DNA of 64,000 nt from an uncultured Eubacteriales bacterium (GTDB taxonomy: Bacteria > Bacillota > Clostridia > Christensenellales > Aristaeellaceae): assembly GCA_900315315.1 (NCBI GenBank), contig OMYT01000031.1:1-64000 (forward strand). The letters are read 5' to 3'. Both the position numbers and the translations under genes were made by a program. The notes beneath the pieces are model-generated. The model worked only from the letters and a program-made list of their open reading frames with translations, searched no databases and was not told where the DNA came from. This document shows, piece by piece, positions 15,844-62,788 of the stretch. How positions within the stretch are numbered: position 1 is the stretch's first letter; each line of letters opens with the position of its first letter.

Positions 15844-16131
15844 TTACCGAAGGGGGGTTGGGGAGCGATCGGAAAGCCCCCCAAGTCTTCCCAGCTGCTC
15901 ATTCTGCCGCCGCAGAATCGTATTCTCATCCTGTGCCTTCAGCAGTTCTTCCGCCAGATTGAAGCACGTCAGCACCGCAGCCTGCCCCGAGGGCAGATTC
16001 GTCACCGCTGCTGTCTCGCTCAGTTTCCGGTCCACAAATGCTGCCACCCGCCGCACAAATTCCGGCGAATCGCTTGAAACCAGTGTATAATTCTTCCCTG
16101 CCACACTCACTGTGACTTTCTGCTTTTCCAT
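15844..16131 (-). CDS. zapA: Cell division protein ZapA (C-terminus provided by a repeat)
   Basis: Small FtsZ-associated protein promoting Z-ring bundling. The 95-residue product has the ZapA domain KVTVSVAGKNYTLVSSDSPE and a C-terminal coiled coil (LAEELLKAQDENTILRRQNEQ). ATG 16131 has AGGAG about ten bases upstream. The last 13 residues (GGLSDRSPTPLR and neighbours) and the stop codon are read from repeat copy R2, so the native tail has been replaced. The next gene downstream is the U32 protein. Confidence 0.85.
   Translation of the reverse strand: MEKQKVTVSVAGKNYTLVSSDSPEFVRRVAAFVDRKLSETAAVTNLPSGQAAVLTCFNLAEELLKAQDENTILRRQNEQLGRLGGLSDRSPTPLR
15847..15884 (+). repeat. Hairpin repeat copy R2, overlapping the zapA 3' end
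   Basis: CCGAAGG, then arm TTGGGGAGC, loop GATCGGAAA (15867-15875) and arm GCCCCCCAA with one mismatch. It encodes the zapA C-terminal codons on the opposite strand and precedes the U32 start. Confidence 0.8.
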
Positions 16132-17715: not shown

Positions 17716-17815
17716 CCGAAGGAGCGCGAGGGGTTTGGAGCGCCCGGAGAAAGAGCCAGTGGCTCTTTCTCAGCGGAAAACGGGCGGCAGCCCCGGGCAC
17801 TCGGAAAGCCCTCGC
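17716..17815 (+). repeat. Hairpin repeat copy R3a with inserted GAGAAAGAGCCA module
   Basis: Base stem GCGAGGG (17726-17732) pairs with CCCTCGC (17809-17815) and a T-run follows, so it can serve as a terminator of the GNAT gene. Inside the loop sits a second module: outer arms GCGCCCG / CGGGCG and a 12-base perfect hairpin GAGAAAGAGCCA-G-complement (17747-17771). The same inner module recurs in copy R4 at 20.35 kb. Confidence 0.85.
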
Positions 17816-17952
17816 TTTTTTTGTTCTTTTCCCTTCATCTGCTCCCTTCCTGAAGCCGAAGGGGGCAGGGGGGCGATCGGAAAGCCCTCGCTTTTTTTGT
17901 TCTTTTCCCTTCATCTGCTCCCTTCCTGAAGCCGAAGGGGGCGGGGGGGCGA
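17801..17952 (+). repeat. 76-bp direct tandem duplication carrying repeat copy R3b
   Basis: Bases 17801-17876 and 17877-17952 are the same 76-base unit with one or two changes (for example GGGGGCA versus GGGGGCG). Each unit contains the right half of one hairpin repeat, a T-run, a C/T-rich spacer and the left half of the next repeat, so the duplication yields complete tandem terminator-like copies. Confidence 0.85.
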
Positions 17953-17967
17953 TCGGAAAGCCCCCCT
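17935..17967 (+). repeat. Hairpin repeat copy R3c (short form)
   Basis: GGGGGGC, loop GATCGGAAA, GCCCCCC followed by TGTTTTG. Third member of the cluster between the GNAT gene and secD; the secD promoter begins 15 bases later. Confidence 0.8.
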
Positions 17968-19371: not shown

Positions 19372-20264
19372 TGACTGTTAAGAATCACTCCCGCATCTGC
19401 CTGATCATCTCCGGCGCAATCATCCTGATCGCCCTGATCCTGACCATCTTCGGCCATGGTATCAACATGGGTATTGACTTTGAGGGCGGCCTCTCCATGC
19501 AGTATGATATGAAGACCGCCGTTGTCTCCAATGATGTCAGTTCCGTCCTCTCCGGTATGGGGATCGCTACCAGCACCGTGACCGTTCAGGGCCGCGATAA
19601 CAATGAAGTAAACATCCGCATCAAGGACGTTGCCAAGGACGACATCCAGAAAGTCCAGGCGGACTTTGAAACCGCCATCAAGGAAAAGTATCCGGACGCC
19701 GTCTCCATCGGTGATGTGAACTATGTCGGTCCCGTTGCCGGCGCCACCCTCGTCAAGAACGCGGTGATCTCCGTGCTGCTGGCCTCCGTTCTGATGCTGA
19801 TCTATATCGCCATCCGGTTCGACCTGAACTCCGGTATTGCCGCTGTCTTCGGCCTCCTGCATGACGTGCTGATCATGCTCTCCTTCATGGTCATCTTCCG
19901 CTCCGTGATCCAGATGAACTCCTCGTTCATCGCCGCGGCGCTGACCATCGTCGGCTACTCCATCAACAACACGATCGTCATCTTCGACCGCATCCGTGAG
20001 AATGCCAAGAAGATGCCCAACGTTGCCCGCGAGCAAGTCACCAACATCTCCATTAAGGAGAGCCTCGGCCGCACCATTTGCACCACCGTCACCACCCTGA
20101 TCACCATCGTGGCGCTGTGCATCCTGGGCGTCGCCTCCATCCGCGAGTTCGCTCTGCCGATCATCGTCGGTATTCTCTCCGGTGTTTACAGCGCTAACAT
20201 GATCAATGGTTATGTCTGGGCGTTCCTGGAGGAAAAGCGTCGCAGCCGGAAGGCAAAGGCCTGA
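19371..20264 (+). CDS. secF: Protein translocase subunit SecF
   Basis: 297 residues, six predicted TM helices. N-terminal TM 10-28 is followed by the SecF signature MGIDFEGGLSMQYD, a small periplasmic-side domain, then YVGPVAGATLVKNAV, and the TM5/6 motif GYSINNTIVIFDRIRENAKK with IKESLGRTICTTVTT. AAGGAGGTG lies eight bases before ATG inside the secD end. A terminator hairpin follows. Confidence 0.95.
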   Translation: MTVKNHSRICLIISGAIILIALILTIFGHGINMGIDFEGGLSMQYDMKTAVVSNDVSSVLSGMGIATSTVTVQGRDNNEVNIRIKDVAKDDIQKVQADFETAIKEKYPDAVSIGDVNYVGPVAGATLVKNAVISVLLASVLMLIYIAIRFDLNSGIAAVFGLLHDVLIMLSFMVIFRSVIQMNSSFIAAALTIVGYSINNTIVIFDRIRENAKKMPNVAREQVTNISIKESLGRTICTTVTTLITIVALCILGVASIREFALPIIVGILSGVYSANMINGYVWAFLEEKRRSRKAKA

Positions 20265-20277
20265 TATTCGTCTGTTA

Positions 20278-20318
20278 GGGAGGGGCTGTGTCGTCACAGT
20301 CCCTCCTTCCTCTTTTTT
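20278..20318 (+). terminator. Terminator of secDF
   Basis: Stem GGAGGGgCTGTG (20279-20290) with CACAGtCCCTCC (20295-20306), TCGT loop, then a T-run ending at the repeat R4. Confidence 0.85.
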
Positions 20319-20320
20319 GA

Positions 20321-20488
20321 CCGAAGGTCCAGGGGTTCGTAGCGCCCTGAGAAAGAGCCAGTGGCTCTTTCTCAGCGAACGATGTCGCGCGCGGTGCGTG
20401 AGGCGGCACACCGCCCGCGGTGCGCGTGCGATTCCTTACGGCAGCCCCGGGCACTCGGAAAGCCCTGGTCGCGCCCGCAGGCGCGAAA
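20321..20488 (+). repeat. Hairpin repeat copy R4, composite with two inserted modules and tail
   Basis: Base arms CCAGGG (20329-20334) and CCCTGG (20463-20468). Within the loop are, in order, the GAGAAAGAGCCA hairpin module (about 20349-20373), the GATGTCGCGCGCGG module with inner hairpin GGCGG-CACA-CCGCC (20380-20440), and the remaining right half of the first module. A tail TCGCGCC..GGCGCGA follows (20469-20486), shared with copy R5. This is the most complex copy in the window and runs to ten bases before recJ. Confidence 0.85.
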
Positions 20489-20497
20489 TCCCATAAC

Positions 20498-22132
20498 ATG
20501 AATTACAAATTTATCCCCCGCTGTACAGCGGAAACCACCTCCTGGTTTGACGCATTGCTCGCCGCGCGCGGCCTGACCACGCCCGAAGCGCGTGATCGCT
20601 TCCTGAACCCTTCCCTGAAGGATCTTCACGACCCCTTCCTCCTGGATGGCATGGAGCAGACCGTCGCCCTCCTTCGCTCAGCCATTTCCGATGGCAAAAC
20701 GATTCTGGTCTACGGCGACTACGATGCCGACGGTGTCTGCGCCACATCAATCCTGCTTGATCTGCTCCATGAGGAGGGCGCTTCCCTGGCCTACCGGATC
20801 CCCTCCCGTCATGAGGAAGGCTACGGCCTTAACGAGCAGGCCGTTCGCGAGATCGCGGACAGATGTTCCCTCCTGATCACCGTGGATTGCGGCATCTCCA
20901 ATCTTGCCGAGGTCGCCCTGGCTAAATCTCTTGGCCTGACCGTCATCATCACGGATCATCATCAGCCTCCGGAGGTTCTTCCCCCGGCGGATGTGGTCAT
21001 GGATCCCCTGCTGGGTTCCTATCCCTTTCCCTCCCTGTGCGGAGCCGGCGTCGCGCTGAAGATCTGCCAGGCGATGCAGGGCATCGAAGGCGTGGAGAAG
21101 CGTCTGGATCTGGCCGCTATCGCCACCGTCGCAGATGTGGTTCCTCTCCTGGACGAAAACCGGATTATCGTCCGGGAAGGCCTGAAACGCCTTGAGAATA
21201 CCTTGCGCCCCGGCCTGCGGTCCCTGCTTCGGGTCTCCGGCACAGAGCCGCCGCTGTCGGCAGATCATCTGGCCTTTCGTCTCGGCCCCCGCCTGAATGC
21301 TGTCGGCCGCCTGGGGGATGCGAAGCTCGGCGTTCATCTGCTCCTGACGCCTGATCCGGCCAAGGCGGAGCATATCGCGGGCTTGATGGAAAACGCCAAT
21401 CGCGAGCGTCAGGATCTGGAGCGCCGCATGACGGATGAAGCCGTTCGCCAGCTTCCCCCTGTCATCCCGTCCCCCCATGTCCTCATCGTTTCCGGCGAGG
21501 ACTGGAATCCCGGGCTCGTGGGGCTCACCGCCGGGCGCCTCTGTGAGCGTTATCACCTCCCCGCCATCGCCCTCAGTGTTCGCGGGGAGGAAGCCGTCGG
21601 TTCCTGCCGGTCAATTCCCGGGGTCAATATCTACCGGATGCTTTCCGCCTGCGAAGATCTTCTGGTCCGTTATGGCGGGCATGAGCAGGCTGCCGGCCTG
21701 ACCGTCCGCACAGAGAATATCCCCGCGCTCAGAGACCGTCTGGAGCAGGTGATCTCCTCCTCGGCGGATCCGGAATGCTTTATTCCTTCCCGGGATTATG
21801 ATCTGGCGGTCCCCTTCCGGACCTGGACGCCGGAATCCCTTGCGCTCCTGGATCAGCTGGAACCCACCGGCTGCGGCAATCCGCCGCCGCTCTTCCGGCT
21901 GGAAAATGCGTCCGTCCAGGCTCTCCGGCGTGTCGGTCGTGACGGTTCCCACCTGAAGCTTTCGCTTCTTGATTCCTCAGGCACTCTCGTCGAAGGTATT
22001 GCTTTCGGCTTCGGAGACATCGCCGATGGTTCCCCCTCATCCCTCGACCTGCTCTACCGCCCGACCGTCAACGACTTCCGTGGCCGTACCGCCATCGAAG
22101 CCCAGGTCACGGCCATTAACTCTCTGCTCTAA
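20498..22132 (+). CDS. recJ: Single-stranded-DNA exonuclease RecJ
   Basis: 5'-3' ssDNA exonuclease of the DHH family used in RecF-pathway repair. The 544 residues carry motif I VYGDYDADGVCA, ITVDCGIS, TDHHQ (DHH), ATVADVVPL, RLNAVGRLGDA, and the DHHA1 motif RYGGHEQAAGL; the C-terminal OB-like region is present. The chosen ATG 20498 encodes MNYKFIPRC, where homologues begin. No ribosome site is visible before it: the leader consists of the tail module of repeat R4, so translation may be inefficient or start by another means. Confidence 0.92.
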   Translation: MNYKFIPRCTAETTSWFDALLAARGLTTPEARDRFLNPSLKDLHDPFLLDGMEQTVALLRSAISDGKTILVYGDYDADGVCATSILLDLLHEEGASLAYRIPSRHEEGYGLNEQAVREIADRCSLLITVDCGISNLAEVALAKSLGLTVIITDHHQPPEVLPPADVVMDPLLGSYPFPSLCGAGVALKICQAMQGIEGVEKRLDLAAIATVADVVPLLDENRIIVREGLKRLENTLRPGLRSLLRVSGTEPPLSADHLAFRLGPRLNAVGRLGDAKLGVHLLLTPDPAKAEHIAGLMENANRERQDLERRMTDEAVRQLPPVIPSPHVLIVSGEDWNPGLVGLTAGRLCERYHLPAIALSVRGEEAVGSCRSIPGVNIYRMLSACEDLLVRYGGHEQAAGLTVRTENIPALRDRLEQVISSSADPECFIPSRDYDLAVPFRTWTPESLALLDQLEPTGCGNPPPLFRLENASVQALRRVGRDGSHLKLSLLDSSGTLVEGIAFGFGDIADGSPSSLDLLYRPTVNDFRGRTAIEAQVTAINSLL

Positions 22133-25135: not shown

Positions 25136-26881
25136 ATGCTGACCATGATTCTGAAGATGACCGCCGCCACGGTGCTTTATGTCGGCGCGACCGTGCTGCT
25201 CTGGCATTTCTGGCACAAGCAAAAAAAACATACCCTGGGCATGAAGCTGGCCGTCGGCCTGTTCTTCGGCCTGTGTTCTGTTGTTTCCAGCCATATCGGA
25301 ATTGATTACGGCGACATGGTCCTGAATATCCGGGATCTCGGTCCGCTGGCGGCAGGTCTGTTTTTTGATCCCCTCTCCGGCATCCTCTCCGGGCTCATCG
25401 GCGGAATCGAGCGGTATATCATCGGTGAATACTTCGGCATCGGTTCCTTTACCCGGGTTGCCTGCAGTTCTTCCACGATTCTTGCCGGTCTCCTGGCGGC
25501 AGCGCTGAATAAATGGGTCTATGAGGGAAAGCGCCCCTCCATGATCCATTGCCTCTTTGTCGGCGCCGAGATGGAAGTTTATCACATGTATGCCGTTTTT
25601 CTCACGAATCGGGATGATCTGGACTCCGCTTACCGGGTCGTGGGAACCTGCGCCCTGCCGATGATCATCTTCACCGCCCTGGGGCTCATGGCCTGTTCCC
25701 ATATCATCCTGCGGCTTTCGGGGCAGCGTGTGAAGAACTATTATATGAGCGCATCGAAAAAGATCACGCCAATCGACCTGCGTTTCCAGCGCTGGATGCT
25801 GCTCCTCGTCCTCGTATTTCTGATTTTCGGTTCTCTTCTCAGTTATTTTCAGACCGTCTCCTCCGGCGGAGAATCGGCATCCGGCCTGAAGCGTGAGTTC
25901 CTTGAGACCCTCTTTCTGGAGATTCTCATCTTTACCGCGCTCTATCTCGTGACCACCGTGCTGGTAAACCGCATCATCGTCCGGAATCTGGATAAAGTCA
26001 ACGATTCCCTCTCCCGGATCACCGCCGGTCATCTGACCGAAACCGTCTCCGTGGAGGAATCCGTCGAGTTCGCGAAGCTTTCCGCCGGGATCAACAGCAC
26101 GGTAACCGCCCTCCGCGGCTACATCGACGCCGCGGAAAAGCGGATGGAAGAGGAGCTGCAGCTCGCCGCCGAGATTCAGGATGCCGCCCTGCCCAAAAGC
26201 TTCGACCTGCCCGCTGAAAACATCAGCCTGCATGCGCTGATGACCCCTGCCCGTCAGGTCGGCGGTGATTTCTATGACTTTTTCTACACCGGGCCGGATC
26301 AGCTCGCCCTGGTCATCGCCGATGTCTCCGGCAAGGGAATTCCCGCGGCCCTGTTCATGATGCGGGCCAAAACCGCCATCAAAAACAGCGCCATCTCCGG
26401 CATAGCCCCGGCAAAGGTGCTGGAAGCCGTGAACGACGTCCTCCGTGAAGGAAACGATCTCGGGATGTTTGTCACCGTCTGGCTGGGCATTCTGGACCTG
26501 AAAACGGGCCTGATGCGCTGCTGCAACGCGGGCCATGAGTATCCGGCGCTGATGCGCGCCGGCGGCGATTATGTACTTCTGAAGGGTAAACACGGCCCGT
26601 TCCTGGGGGTAGTGCCCGGCATTCCCAGACGTGAATATGAGCTTCAGCTGGAATCCGGAGACCGTCTCTTCGTCTATACCGACGGCGTTCCGGAAGCCGT
26701 CAATGAAAACAACGAACAGTACGGCACTGCCCGTATGACGCAGCATCTGAACACCCTGAAGCATCAGCCCCAGGATCGGCTTCTCTCCGGCATGCTGGAA
26801 AATGTCCGGTGCTTCGCCGGCGAAGCGGAACAGTTTGACGATATCACCATGCTGGGGATCACCTGGACCCGTCCGGCCTGA
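25136..26881 (+). CDS. Membrane PP2C phosphatase (5TM LytS-like, HAMP, SpoIIE domain)
   Basis: 581 residues. The N-terminus to about 200 has five to six TM helices with motifs of the 5TMR-LYT sensor type (RDLGPLAAGLFFDPLSGILSG, IGGIERYIIGEYFGIGSFTR). Another TM pair (about 223-245, 265-290) leads into a HAMP-like segment and a short coiled coil, then a SpoIIE/RsbU-type PP2C domain: PARQVGGDFYDFF, ADVSGKGIPAALFM, NAGHEYPAL, YTDGVPEA and EQFDDITML, including the metal-binding Asp residues. It should dephosphorylate a STAS anti-anti-sigma protein in response to a membrane signal; the STAS gene lies 16 bases away, convergent. Confidence 0.9.
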   Translation: MLTMILKMTAATVLYVGATVLLWHFWHKQKKHTLGMKLAVGLFFGLCSVVSSHIGIDYGDMVLNIRDLGPLAAGLFFDPLSGILSGLIGGIERYIIGEYFGIGSFTRVACSSSTILAGLLAAALNKWVYEGKRPSMIHCLFVGAEMEVYHMYAVFLTNRDDLDSAYRVVGTCALPMIIFTALGLMACSHIILRLSGQRVKNYYMSASKKITPIDLRFQRWMLLLVLVFLIFGSLLSYFQTVSSGGESASGLKREFLETLFLEILIFTALYLVTTVLVNRIIVRNLDKVNDSLSRITAGHLTETVSVEESVEFAKLSAGINSTVTALRGYIDAAEKRMEEELQLAAEIQDAALPKSFDLPAENISLHALMTPARQVGGDFYDFFYTGPDQLALVIADVSGKGIPAALFMMRAKTAIKNSAISGIAPAKVLEAVNDVLREGNDLGMFVTVWLGILDLKTGLMRCCNAGHEYPALMRAGGDYVLLKGKHGPFLGVVPGIPRREYELQLESGDRLFVYTDGVPEAVNENNEQYGTARMTQHLNTLKHQPQDRLLSGMLENVRCFAGEAEQFDDITMLGITWTRPA

Positions 26882-29860: not shown

Positions 29861-31171
29861 TCAGGCTCCGTCCGTCCCCTTATACTCGATGCACATCATT
29901 GTCAGATCGTCAAACTGTTCCGCGTCGCCGACGAAAGCGTCGACGGCGCTTTTCACCGTCCGGAGGATTTCCTCCGGCTTTCCGTCCGGGCAGGTGTTCA
30001 GCGCCGCGGCCAGGCGCTGCTCCCCGAACATTTCTCCACTGCCGGCCGTTGCCTCCGGCACCCCGTCCGTGTAGACAAACACGCGGTCGCCGGGATGAAG
30101 CTCAAACGCCCGGTTCTGATACCTGGCTTTGCGGTTCACGCCGACAAAAACCGCGTGAGGATATTTCACCAGCGCATATTTTCCGTCCGCGCGGCGCAGC
30201 GCCGGGTGTTCATGCCCCGCGTTGCAGGCCAGGCCTTTGCCGGTGGAAATTTCCAGCACGGCCACCCACACCGTCACGAACATCATCGATGAATTCCGCT
30301 CGCACAGCCGCTGATTGACCCGGTCCAGGGCCGTTGCCGGATCGCACCCGTTCAGCAGTTCGTTCTTGATCAGCGTCTTGGAGACCATCATAAACAGGGC
30401 GGCGGGAATTCCCTTGCCCGAAACGTCCGCGATCACCAGCGCCAGATGGTCGCTGTCGGTCAGGAAGAAATCGTAGAAATCCCCGCCCACCTCTTTGGCC
30501 GGCGTCATGGAGGCGAAAAGATCAAACTCCGTCCGGTTCGGGAACGCCGGGAATTCATTCGGCAGCACGTTTGCCTGAATCTCCCTGGCCACGACCAGTT
30601 CCCTCTCAATCCGCTCCTGTTCTTTCTTCCGGTTTTCCTGTTCTGCCTGCTCCCGCTCCATCCGCCGGATTGTGTCCATCTGCTGCGTCAGGGCGTCGCA
30701 CGTCCGGTTAATCTCCCGCTGCATCTGTTCAAACTCGTTGATGGAGAAAGGCCTGAATTCAATGGACTCCAGGTCTCCCTGCCCCATGCGGATAATCTCG
30801 TTCTGCAGGGAGTTGAACTGGCGCATGAACTTTTTCAGCCACAGCGCGTAGAAGACCAGCGCGACCAGGAACACCAACCCCGCGGCGATCCAGATAGCGC
30901 CGCGGACACGGTGGACCACCTGCTCGTAGTTCTCCATGTTCACTTCCCGCACCAGCGTCCATTCGGGTGAAGCCATCGTCATGGAAAACAGGCAGAAGGG
31001 ACGGCCGTTTTCATCATGGAGCAGTTCTCCTTTGTTGCTTTCGTTGATGAGCATCCCCGGATCCGTGTGTTCCGCTTCCGGGCCCGCATGCCAGATTTCG
31101 GATCCGTCTTCGGTATAGAGATACCACGTGCTTTTCCCGTCCTGCAGCACGCTGAACAGGCCGTCGAACAC
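29861..31171 (-). CDS. SpoIIE-type PP2C phosphatase, N-terminally truncated sensor
   Basis: 436 residues from GTG 31171. Residues 1-85 look like the second half of an extracellular Cache sensor (DGKSTWYLYTEDGSEIWHAG ... ASPEWTLVREV), followed by one TM (about 92-112), HAMP, coiled coil, and a complete PP2C domain (PAKEVGGDFYDFF, ADVSGKGIPAALFM, NAGHEHPAL, YTDGVPEA, EQFDDLTMM). The first TM and first half of the Cache domain expected in this architecture are missing; the frame runs upstream only as far as a TGA inside the ATPase gene. Without the leading TM the protein would be topologically odd. The catalytic domain closely parallels that of the gene at 25136. Confidence 0.8.
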   Translation of the reverse strand: MFDGLFSVLQDGKSTWYLYTEDGSEIWHAGPEAEHTDPGMLINESNKGELLHDENGRPFCLFSMTMASPEWTLVREVNMENYEQVVHRVRGAIWIAAGLVFLVALVFYALWLKKFMRQFNSLQNEIIRMGQGDLESIEFRPFSINEFEQMQREINRTCDALTQQMDTIRRMEREQAEQENRKKEQERIERELVVAREIQANVLPNEFPAFPNRTEFDLFASMTPAKEVGGDFYDFFLTDSDHLALVIADVSGKGIPAALFMMVSKTLIKNELLNGCDPATALDRVNQRLCERNSSMMFVTVWVAVLEISTGKGLACNAGHEHPALRRADGKYALVKYPHAVFVGVNRKARYQNRAFELHPGDRVFVYTDGVPEATAGSGEMFGEQRLAAALNTCPDGKPEEILRTVKSAVDAFVGDAEQFDDLTMMCIEYKGTDGA

Positions 31172-34307: not shown

Positions 34308-34357
34308 CCGAAGGTCCAGGGCGATCGGAAAGCCCTGGTCGCGCCCTCAGGCGCGAA
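34308..34357 (+). repeat. Hairpin repeat copy R5 (short form with tail)
   Basis: CCGAAGG, arm CCAGGGC, loop GATCGGAAA (34323-34331), arm GCCCTGG, then the tail hairpin TCGCGCC-CTCA-GGCGCGA (34339-34356). The tail provides the hemZ stop codon on the other strand. Confidence 0.85.
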
Positions 34358-35783
34358 ACATCTCCTCTTTCCGCTTGATCATATCATCGACTCTGCTGAT
34401 ATAAACCTCAATATTACTTACATTGGGAGCCCTCGTAATATGCCCTTCCTCCGGCCAGATCCTCTTCGAAATCCCTCCCGCGCCCATCGCCAGTATATGG
34501 GACGTCTCTTCCATAATATCCACATTGTACACGCACGCGTGCCCCGGCAGCGCGTATCCCGTGTTCTCCAGGTTTCCGGCCATATACTTCTGCCGGTACA
34601 GGTAATACGGCTTCATTCCCATGCTCCGGGCAGTCTCCCGTCCCGTTTCCACCATCCCCGCCGTCATCTCTCCGTCCGGCAGCGGATGGTTCTCCAGGCT
34701 CATCCGGGAGGAGCGCTTGATCGCCAGCGTGTGCACCGTCAGGCTTTCCGGCCGCAGTTTCTTGGCCTCCGCCATCGTATAGGCAAAGTCCTTCTCCGTC
34801 TCCCCCGGCAGCCCCGCGATCACGTCCATGTTGATGTGCCCGATTCCCTCTTCCCGTGCCAGCCCGTACGCGTCCCGCACCTGCTGCGCAGTATGCGCCC
34901 GGCCGATGATCTCCAGCGTCCGGTCGTTCATCGTCTGGGGATTGATGGAGATCCGGCCGATTCCGGCCGCCCGGATTGCTTTCAGCTTGCGCCGCGTCAG
35001 GGTATCCGGCCGCCCCGCCTCCACCGTGTATTCCATCGCACCCGGAAACAGGGAAACCGTGCTCTCCAGCAGTTCCTCAAACGCGTCTTCCGGCAGCGCC
35101 GTCGGTGTCCCCCCGCCGATGTACAGCGCGCGCAGCGTCCTCCCGCTTTCCCGCAGGATCTCCGCGCATGCTTTCATTTCTTTTCCCAGCGCCGCCATAT
35201 AGGGTGCGATCAGGGAACCGTCGCCGATCTCCCCCGAGGAAAAGGAACAGTACGCGCATCGGGTCGTGCAGAAGGGAATGCCGATGTAGACGTCCATCCA
35301 CCGGTCCCCCGGCGGCGGCAGTTTCTGTTGCTCCGCCGCGATCTCCGCCAGCAGTTCCGCCCGCTCCGGCGTCACGTCAAATTCCCTCACCAGTTTCTGA
35401 ACCGCTTCCTCCGGCGTGTATCCCGCCGCCAGCGCTTCCAGCATCAGGTGCGTCGGCCGCACCCCGGTCATGCTCCCCCACGGCGGATGGATCCCGGTCA
35501 TCTCCCTGCACAGGTCGTACAGCGTCTGCTTGCACAGGCGCCTCGCCGCCCGCTTCCGGTGCAGGGTCTGGATGCGTTCGTCCGGATCATCCGGAACCGG
35601 AACCGATCGGGTCGCCGTATATTCTCCATCCGTAAACGTAATCCGGTAGGTCTGGTCGGATTCCACAGCCTGCGGCACAAAGCGTTTCGGTTCATCCCAC
35701 ACGCTCTCCGGAAACCCGAACAGCCGGGTCATCACCCGCAGCTCCGGCTCAATCGTCTCCAGATAGCTCTCCAGTTCAGTCAT
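34347..35783 (-). CDS. hemZ: Coproporphyrinogen dehydrogenase HemZ (radical SAM)
   Basis: 478-residue radical SAM protein of the HemN/HemZ group. The 4Fe-4S motif is CTTRCAYCSF near residue 171, then GGGTPTALPE, VEAGRPDTLT, RISINPQTMND and MDVIAGLPGET. The 160-residue N-terminal extension before the radical SAM core (with GVRPTHL) is characteristic of HemZ. In Clostridia lacking other heme genes it may act on another tetrapyrrole. The last codons (FRA, stop) come from the tail module of repeat R5, and another repeat (R6) lies upstream of its start. Confidence 0.88.
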   Translation of the reverse strand: MTELESYLETIEPELRVMTRLFGFPESVWDEPKRFVPQAVESDQTYRITFTDGEYTATRSVPVPDDPDERIQTLHRKRAARRLCKQTLYDLCREMTGIHPPWGSMTGVRPTHLMLEALAAGYTPEEAVQKLVREFDVTPERAELLAEIAAEQQKLPPPGDRWMDVYIGIPFCTTRCAYCSFSSGEIGDGSLIAPYMAALGKEMKACAEILRESGRTLRALYIGGGTPTALPEDAFEELLESTVSLFPGAMEYTVEAGRPDTLTRRKLKAIRAAGIGRISINPQTMNDRTLEIIGRAHTAQQVRDAYGLAREEGIGHINMDVIAGLPGETEKDFAYTMAEAKKLRPESLTVHTLAIKRSSRMSLENHPLPDGEMTAGMVETGRETARSMGMKPYYLYRQKYMAGNLENTGYALPGHACVYNVDIMEETSHILAMGAGGISKRIWPEEGHITRAPNVSNIEVYISRVDDMIKRKEEMFRA

Positions 35784-35798
35784 TTAATAAGTTCTCCT

Positions 35799-35935
35799 CC
35801 GAAGGGGTTCGGGCGATGTCGCGTGCGGTGCGCGAGCTGCACATATTGGGCCGCCGCCAGTGGCGGATAAAGGCCCATTGTGTGTTGAGTCACCGGCCGC
35901 GGTGCGCGTGCGATTCCTTGCGAAAAGCCCCCTGG
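35799..35935 (+). repeat. Hairpin repeat copy R6 with doubly nested insert
   Basis: CCGAAGG and GGGCGAT on the left; CCTTGCGAAAAGCCCCCTGG on the right. Between lie the flanks of the GCGCGG module, but the usual inner hairpin is replaced by a larger one: CACATATTGGGCC (35850-35862) pairs with GGCCCATTGTGTG (35871-35884 region) around CCGCC-AGT-GGCGG. This is an insert within an insert. Confidence 0.8.
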
Positions 35936-60169: not shown

Positions 60170-60258
60170 CCGAAGGGGGCTTGGGCGATGTCGCGCGCGG
60201 TGCGCGAGACGGCACACCGTCCGCGGTGCGCGTGCGATTCCTTGCGGAAAGCCCCCGG
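60170..60258 (+). repeat. Hairpin repeat copy R7 with GCGCGG module
   Basis: CCGAAGGGGGC on the left and GCGGAAAGCCCCC on the right, with the GATGTCGCGCGCGG ... GATTCCTTGC insert in the loop. The insert holds GACGG-CACA-CCGTC and a direct repeat GCGGTGCGCG. A T-run follows. Lies between convergent genes. Confidence 0.85.
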
Positions 60259-61681: not shown

Positions 61682-61795
61682 CCGAAGGGGCCGGGCGATG
61701 TCGCGCGCGGTGCGCGAGACGGCACACCGTCCGCGGTGCGCGTGCGATTCCTTGCGGAAAGCCCCCTGGTCATAGTCGCGGCCGCGGCCGCGAAA
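61682..61795 (+). repeat. Hairpin repeat copy R8 with GCGCGG module and tail
   Basis: Nearly identical to R7 in the inserted module, with base arms GGGGCC/GCCCCC and a G+C-rich tail palindrome TCGCGGCCGCGGCCGCGA (about 61775-61792) in place of the R4/R5 tail. Located between ftsY and glyS. Confidence 0.85.
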
Positions 61796-62753: not shown

Positions 62754-62788
62754 CCGAAGGGGTTTGGGGGCGATCGGAAAGCCCCCAA
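62754..62788 (+). repeat. Hairpin repeat copy R9 (short form)
   Basis: CCGAAGG, arm TTGGGGGC (62764-62771), loop GATCGGAAA, arm GCCCCCAA (62781-62788). One base beyond the serS stop codon, upstream of ftsY. Confidence 0.85.

Follow-up and report, generated by a model that had tools for sequence, protein, structure and literature searches.

The segment at positions 20,321–20,488 (+ strand) of the 64,000-nucleotide stretch of DNA analysed here (the window) belongs to a palindromic element present in many copies. Its loop holds two further modules, B and C, and a tail hairpin follows. We interpret this segment as a mosaic: a REP-like palindrome, mobile but non-autonomous, whose copying is tied to one strand of the replication fork in this lineage. 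Our confidence in this interpretation is middling, and goes no higher because the polarity is limited by lineage, as seen in the genome G035 and in named loci of other genomes.

To describe the nested copy from left to right, it begins with the tag CCGAAGG (20,321–20,327), in which CCGA is complementary to the TCGG of the loop at 20,455–20,458. The base stem CCAGGG/CCCTGG reported in an earlier sequence-only reading is present, with the left arm at 20,329–20,334 and the right arm at 20,463–20,468; both arms are placed by sequence and by arm covariation. The 5' part of module B (20,332–20,380; beginning with GGGGTTCG) includes the hairpin GAGAAAGAGCC-AGT-GGCTCTTTCTC at 20,349–20,373. This is followed by module C, the GCGCGG module (20,381–20,439; GATGTCGCGCGCGG...GTGCGATTCCTTAC), the 3' part of module B (20,440–20,453; GGCAGCCCCGGGCA), and the conserved loop core CGGAAAG (20,456–20,462). 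The tail consists of the hairpin TCGCGCCCGCAGGCGCGA plus AA (20,469–20,488, the hairpin itself being 20,469–20,486). The earlier reading had placed two modules within the loop of the base element. Both are there, but the placement of module C relative to B is more than a simple insertion into a loop, since C replaces GAACGGGC, which is the 3' strand of the B basal stem. Other B copies read CAGCGAAGAACGGGCGGCAGCCC and this copy reads CAGCGAAC, then module C, then GGCAGCCC. When positions 20,300–20,510 were folded as single-stranded DNA, the predicted energy was –57.1 kcal/mol, whereas 200 dinucleotide-shuffled sequences averaged –39.4 (z = –5.24) and none of them was as stable.

The other copies listed in the window are also on the + strand. 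Short copies occur at 2320–2354 and 15,847–15,884 (both type A), at 17,856–17,891 and 17,932–17,966 (two units of a 76-bp tandem repeat), and at 62,754–62,788 (adjoining a stop codon), with a short copy plus tail at 34,308–34,358. A copy with module B only is found at 17,716–17,815. Copies with module C lie at 60,170–60,257, at 35,799–35,932, where the apical loop of C holds a further hairpin, and at 61,682–61,795, where the tail hairpin is also present. The sharing of parts among window copies noticed earlier was borne out: the GAGAAAGAGCC hairpin recurs at 17,747, the GCGCGG module (as GCGCGGTGCG) at 60,195 and 61,705, and the tail hairpin at 34,316–34,358.

In the genome to which the window belongs (G000; 4.26 Mb, 197 contigs, 89% complete), the 168-bp copy used as a query gave 73 matches, mostly partial. 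The core 13-mer GATCGGAAAGCCC occurs 159 times (52 forward, 107 reverse), compared with 0 and 0 for the reversed-pattern control. A strict-stem detector found 53 copies. We used a looser detector instead, which recovers seven of the 10 listed window copies and gave 118 candidates in 41 pieces of G000 (the window and 40 stretches); 77 of these are short, 33 carry B, four carry C (the copy at 20,321–20,488 among them), and four are of other kinds. The core 13-mer is present in 42 of the 100 genomes examined, G000 included, with copy numbers from 0 to 159 within the genus. At least 113 stretches in the genome_contigs collection match a 17-mer, and most are titled as metagenome assemblies of Clostridia or Ruminococcus; among the matches listed, lone ones in other phyla look like chance. 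Four records of the phage collection match the 168-bp copy, at most over query bases 129–168, and the plasmid collection gave no match to it. The element had no match at gathering score when the whole window was searched against Rfam 15, and a relaxed search of 20,250–20,540 gave eight matches, all below that score. The only Rfam match at gathering score in the window is a raiA RNA at 1289–1490 (– strand). A separate feature of the window is a 147-nt inverted repeat (73%) at 26,240–26,386 and 30,362–30,508, within two opposite genes of similar sequence. These genes, which we take to be SpoIIE-like, are probably duplicates.

We compared 435 detected copies from all fetched loci. The base unit consists of CCGAAGG, a short linker, a stem of 7–9 bp ending in GGGC/GCCC, and the 9-nt loop GATCGGAAA. 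In 255 short copies, 1997 of 2024 outer-stem pairs are Watson–Crick despite widely differing arms, and the remainder are 10 GT, 10 CA, and seven others. The tag and the loop vary together. CCGA occurs with TCGG in 231 copies and with CCGG in 21, all nine loops ending in C (three TCGC, six CCGC) have the tag GCGA, and one copy pairs CCAA with TTGG; one-sided exceptions (GCGA/CCGG, CCGG/TCGG, and CCAA/TCGG) were seen once each. From this covariation at two base pairs, the first four bases of the tag are predicted to pair with the loop and form a pseudoknot-like unit. The linker lengthens with the stem (7 bp with 1 nt in 46 copies, 8 with 2 in 22, 8 with 3 in 16, 9 with 3 in 91, and 9 with 4 in 48), as expected if it spans the stem in a pseudoknot. 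In modules B and C, there are 73 and 12 GT pairs versus 4 and 0 CA pairs, most of the GT pairs being single invariant ones. The CCGG loops give A–C on the strand shown, which points in the opposite direction to this GT excess regarding the strand that folds. Upstream of the element, positions –8 to –5 weakly favour YATT (T at 0.63 at –6 and 0.57 at –5; 92 copies).

The orientation of the element was compared with GC skew, which served as a proxy for fork direction in place of an origin and terminus located by gene content. Of the 118 copies detected in G000 (the window and 40 stretches), 115 are on the strand with negative skew. The three exceptions are a coding-like false match, a copy where local skew is +0.009, and a reverse copy that looks real (L562). 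In G000, 101 genes are on the same strand as the element and 235 on the opposite strand, meaning that most genes run counter to it. Within the window, the region from 36 to 60 kb has a local skew around zero or above. Orientation switches with skew inside one contig (C168), and copies within a contig agree in 97 of 97 cases (18 contigs with at least two listed copies, from a listing of 100 of the 159). In the relative G044, all eight element-holding stretches follow skew, with the switch between 1.72 and 1.85 Mb. The 3-kb loci of relatives follow skew in 15 of 17 cases, and viral loci in 40 of 51 (34 of 40 where skew is strong); at least two of the 51, L396 and L480, look like coding matches. 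Other lineages differ from this. Of 88 named genome_contigs loci from other Clostridia, 33 hold both orientations, and the remaining 55, judged on 8-kb pieces, divide into 25 that follow and 30 that oppose skew. Many of these loci are REPIN-like inverted pairs, which in other Clostridia lie 110–146 bp apart, some in arrays (L132, L151, L164, and L180), and one contig of a relative (G029:C1) has one forward and eight reverse copies. CGTC-type repeats follow skew in 23 of 24 cases in G002, outside one zero-skew stretch, but not in G035 (seven of the 12 with a repeat-like end, or 16 of 25 by pattern). Module B follows skew in eight of eight cases in G002 and eight of 10 in G035, which is looser than the CCGAAGG element. 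Together, these data indicate that orientation follows replication in the G000 lineage but not generally.

One rival reading is a classical REP or REPIN system, in which a Y1 enzyme (RAYT/TnpA-REP) encoded elsewhere would mobilise the element in single-stranded form, taken from the template of the lagging strand. Replication-linked polarity, tagged hairpins, high copy number, and the inverted pairs of other lineages would fit such an origin, as would the lagging-strand use known for IS200/IS605 enzymes (PMC6006769). Y1 proteins are encoded in 29 of 61 genomes. However, none of the 21 Y1 loci fetched (20 from the genus and one, L232, an overlapping locus of G002) has a CCGAAGG...CGGAAAG element alongside. 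Four that were listed with repeats (L234, L240, L242, and L245) carry unrelated palindromes of their own, of the GGGGACGG type with varying self-complementary arms. The RAYT/Y1 partner suggested earlier is not supported by these loci. The Y1 matches of G000, with its 159 cores and 89% completeness, are split or at a contig edge only, and genomes lacking the core do have Y1 matches (four in G001, two in G018, one in G019, three in G023, and two in G035). In addition, insertion of IS200/IS605 is not known to leave a target duplication. On these grounds, we consider mobilisation by Y1 unlikely. A reverse transcriptase was also tried as a partner and rejected since it does not track the repeat: an RVT_1 domain was found in five of 15 genomes, and three genomes that do carry the element (G024, G040, and G044) lack it. 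Thus, no partner enzyme was found among the 21 Y1 loci fetched or through RVT_1 in 15 genomes.

The gap between secF and recJ, in which 20,321–20,488 lies, was compared in 30 loci (that of G000, 24 readable relatives, and five with one flank only). The CCGAAGG element is absent from all 24 readable relatives, and the terminator-like hairpin of secF is mostly still recognisable. In G000, the element lies directly before recJ, where most relatives have a GGAGG-like sequence. In G001 (L289), the gap contains module B in a GTCATCCTG host instead. At a second site, the short copy plus tail at 34,308–34,358 has an imperfect flanking direct repeat and supplies the stop codon of a radical-SAM-type gene (34,347–35,783). 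Relatives end here in LF and a few residues, and the gene of G000 ends in MFRA, with its last codons inside the element tail. Beyond the element, the sequence still resembles the older gene end, which is consistent with a duplication of approximately 26–29 bp. Between two phage contigs with flanks approximately 97–100% identical, the presence of the element differs at two sites, in both directions; the bases adjoining the elements differ as well, so that these are not clean insertions. At several orthologous sites, both genomes have the element but with different arms (L026/L051 and L463/L414).

Flanking direct repeats scoring at least 10 were found at 36 of 331 copies, compared with 6.8 expected from shuffled flanks, and those with z of at least 4.5 at 10 of 306, compared with 0.2 expected (lengths 30–85 bp). 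They are imperfect, span 26–85 bp overall, concern a minority of copies, and in several cases lie in tandem arrays. A target duplication of fixed length was considered and rejected since no single length emerges. The empty orthologous sites and this minority of flanking direct repeats indicate insertion, and mobility of the element is supported.

Many copies lie directly after stop codons, and the uniform polarity in G000 resembles that of polar chromosome signals. Both would suit a selected functional element, whether a terminator, an mRNA 3' end, or a polar replication or segregation signal. Against this, of 70 copies with both neighbours called, eight lie between two genes codirectional with the element and 20 lie beside one, and orientation is uniform within each of the 20 element-holding stretches. 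The copy at 20,321–20,488 itself is placed antisense-wise in the secF–recJ gap and follows a terminator-like hairpin already present there. Copy number ranges from 0 to 159 among genomes of one genus, sites are empty in relatives, and the element is present in phage contigs. A selected function is therefore quite improbable as the explanation. The element-bearing viral contigs include tailed-phage-like genes, with terminase- and portal-like open reading frames seen by eye (L446, L414, and L394). In phage genes such as that at L446:977–2587, the C-terminus GGFPIAP is encoded by the bottom strand of the element.

The same gene context bears on retroposition. In 53 of the 70 copies, the right-hand gene runs toward the element, and a stop codon falls –7 to +8 nt from the right edge in 28 of these 53 convergent genes versus two of 19 on the tag side. 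This asymmetry, the invariant tag end, the right end that varies with presence of the tail, and the varied lengths of the duplications are what target-primed reverse transcription might produce, where an RNA with the 3' end CCUUCGG would be copied onto the nascent lagging strand. This seems very improbable to us given the distribution of RVT_1 described above and an outer stem that has no excess of wobble pairs.

The sequence-only reading had proposed that the modules occur alone and in combination. This is the case, since we found them in different hosts and in either nesting order. The inner hairpin of module B covaries at seven of 22 consensus pairs (59 distinct sequences), and module C is almost invariant (nine sequences) with one covarying pair. 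Matches to the B pattern with 0–2 mismatches occur in 11 of 11 genomes searched, a count that includes chance matches (up to seven in the control). We sorted by hand the hosts of 37 readable B-like sites outside the G000 stretches. Fifteen are in GTCAT-type (CGTC REP-like) hosts, three in GTCATCCCGAGC hosts at another position, and 13 in a family with GAGGGCAGCCAGTGGCTGAAAT. Five have single hosts, namely a CGAACG hairpin, a RAYT-REP-like hairpin, module C, a CCGAAGG element, and a tRNA-like sequence, and one is coding-like. L315, L326, and L337 show B hosted by another nested repeat family (GAGGGCAGCCAGTGGCTGAAAT...CCGAAAGGGAGTGAGC). In the tRNA-like sequence (L332:1400–1550), B occupies, by eye, an apparent variable-loop region. 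ARAGORN called no tRNA in L332, though inspection by eye shows parts around B that resemble a T arm, an anticodon arm, and CCA. Complementarity between the flanks of module B exceeds that of shuffled flanks only slightly (mean longest match 5.24 versus 4.65; duplex energy –16.6 versus –16.2).

Of 14 exact-pattern copies of C in G000, 13 have a CCGAAGG element as host, its tag being CCGAAAGG in one case, and one is in another host (L574). A further hairpin is found inside C in L568, L569, L574, and the window copy at 35,799, and in L568 the nesting reaches four levels. B occurs inside C (L323), C inside the apical hairpin of B (L327), and C in the base of B (20,321–20,488). Since both nesting orders occur, deletion from one long element is ruled out. 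There are shorter forms within longer ones, such as a B that lacks the apical hairpin (L342) and another B that is truncated (L471, one site), but one long ancestral element altered by deletions only is almost certainly wrong and is refuted as a general account: unrelated hosts carry the same module at differing positions, and the nesting order can be reversed (L323, L327, L574, and 20,321–20,488).

For the mosaic, REP-like palindrome copied on one fork strand, we infer a single-stranded active form. The base unit would fold as a single strand with the tag, a stem of 7–9 bp, and a loop in which TCGG is paired to the tag. Further hairpin modules, mobile or swapped among repeats, would have entered the loop of the base unit in successive events. 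New copies would all take the same orientation with respect to the fork, most simply because copying or joining involves single-stranded DNA on the side of the lagging strand. One candidate route is a strand-specific enzyme. Alternatively, the nascent lagging strand may switch template to another copy and rejoin its own template some tens of bases upstream, thereby generating both variable flanking duplications and arm changes that preserve the palindrome. Template switching would better account for the variable duplications, the replacement of arms at the same site, and the exchange of hairpins within hairpins, whereas an enzyme would better account for conservation of the tag and loop. A bolder version, which we regard as tentative and on balance doubtful, is that these elements are genomic parasites that get by without their own transposase: DNA hairpins with a pseudoknot would be copied when replication switches from one lagging-strand template to another, leaving variable target duplications, with loops acting as landing and exchange sites that trade modules across families and with phages carrying them between hosts.

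As a comparison, GTAG REPs, BIMEs, and REPINs are likewise short, tagged, intergenic hairpins in high copy number, and inverted pairs like those of REPINs are found in some lineages of the element. In G000, all but one real-looking copy have the same orientation. The element also differs from these families in its tag (CCGAAGG, in some copies GCGAAGG, rather than a GTAG-type tetranucleotide 5' of a 20–40 bp hairpin), in tag–loop pairing, in having up to four nesting levels, in having no RAYT beside it (21 Y1 loci), and in its strict polarity in G000. CGTC-tagged REPs resemble it in being tagged hairpins for which, in the portions of Di Nocera et al. (2013; PMC3733652) drawn on here, the route of spread is an open question and no dedicated transposase was known to the authors; both also host module B. 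Those REPs have a CGTC (or TGTC/CCTC) tag, a stem of 8–9 bp, and a loop of 4–5 nt according to the same portions, unlike the CCGAAGG tag and 9-nt loop here, and their skew polarity is weaker (23 of 24 in G002; seven of 12 repeat-like in G035). IS200/IS605 elements share hairpin substrates and a replication-linked orientation, which the element has in G000 and G044 but not in the named loci of other lineages; they differ in that no Y1 gene was found with the element and in that some copies have flanking duplications. MITEs differ in that no paired ends were seen in G000 and the duplications are a minority and of variable length. Mobile GC clusters and hairpin elements of mitochondrial DNA (PMC4478555 and PMC2800124) are also small mobile palindromes without a known transposase but belong to organelle genomes.

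The earlier claim that no described family is built like this thus held in part. Palindromes inside palindromes are already reported for some GTAG and CGTC REPs in the consulted portions of PMC3733652, but in the open-licence PubMed Central literature, as far as it was covered, we found no description of a multi-level modular system, of a tag–loop pseudoknot, or of such strand polarity.

These results have several implications. The same modules are shared among several repeat families, and the pairing of tag and loop can be tested. Such repeats rewrite the ends of genes, as seen with the stop codon given to the radical-SAM-type gene and the insertion directly before recJ. In one lineage, the orientation of the element reports fork direction almost without exception, which makes it a natural system for strand-specific copying at the replication fork.
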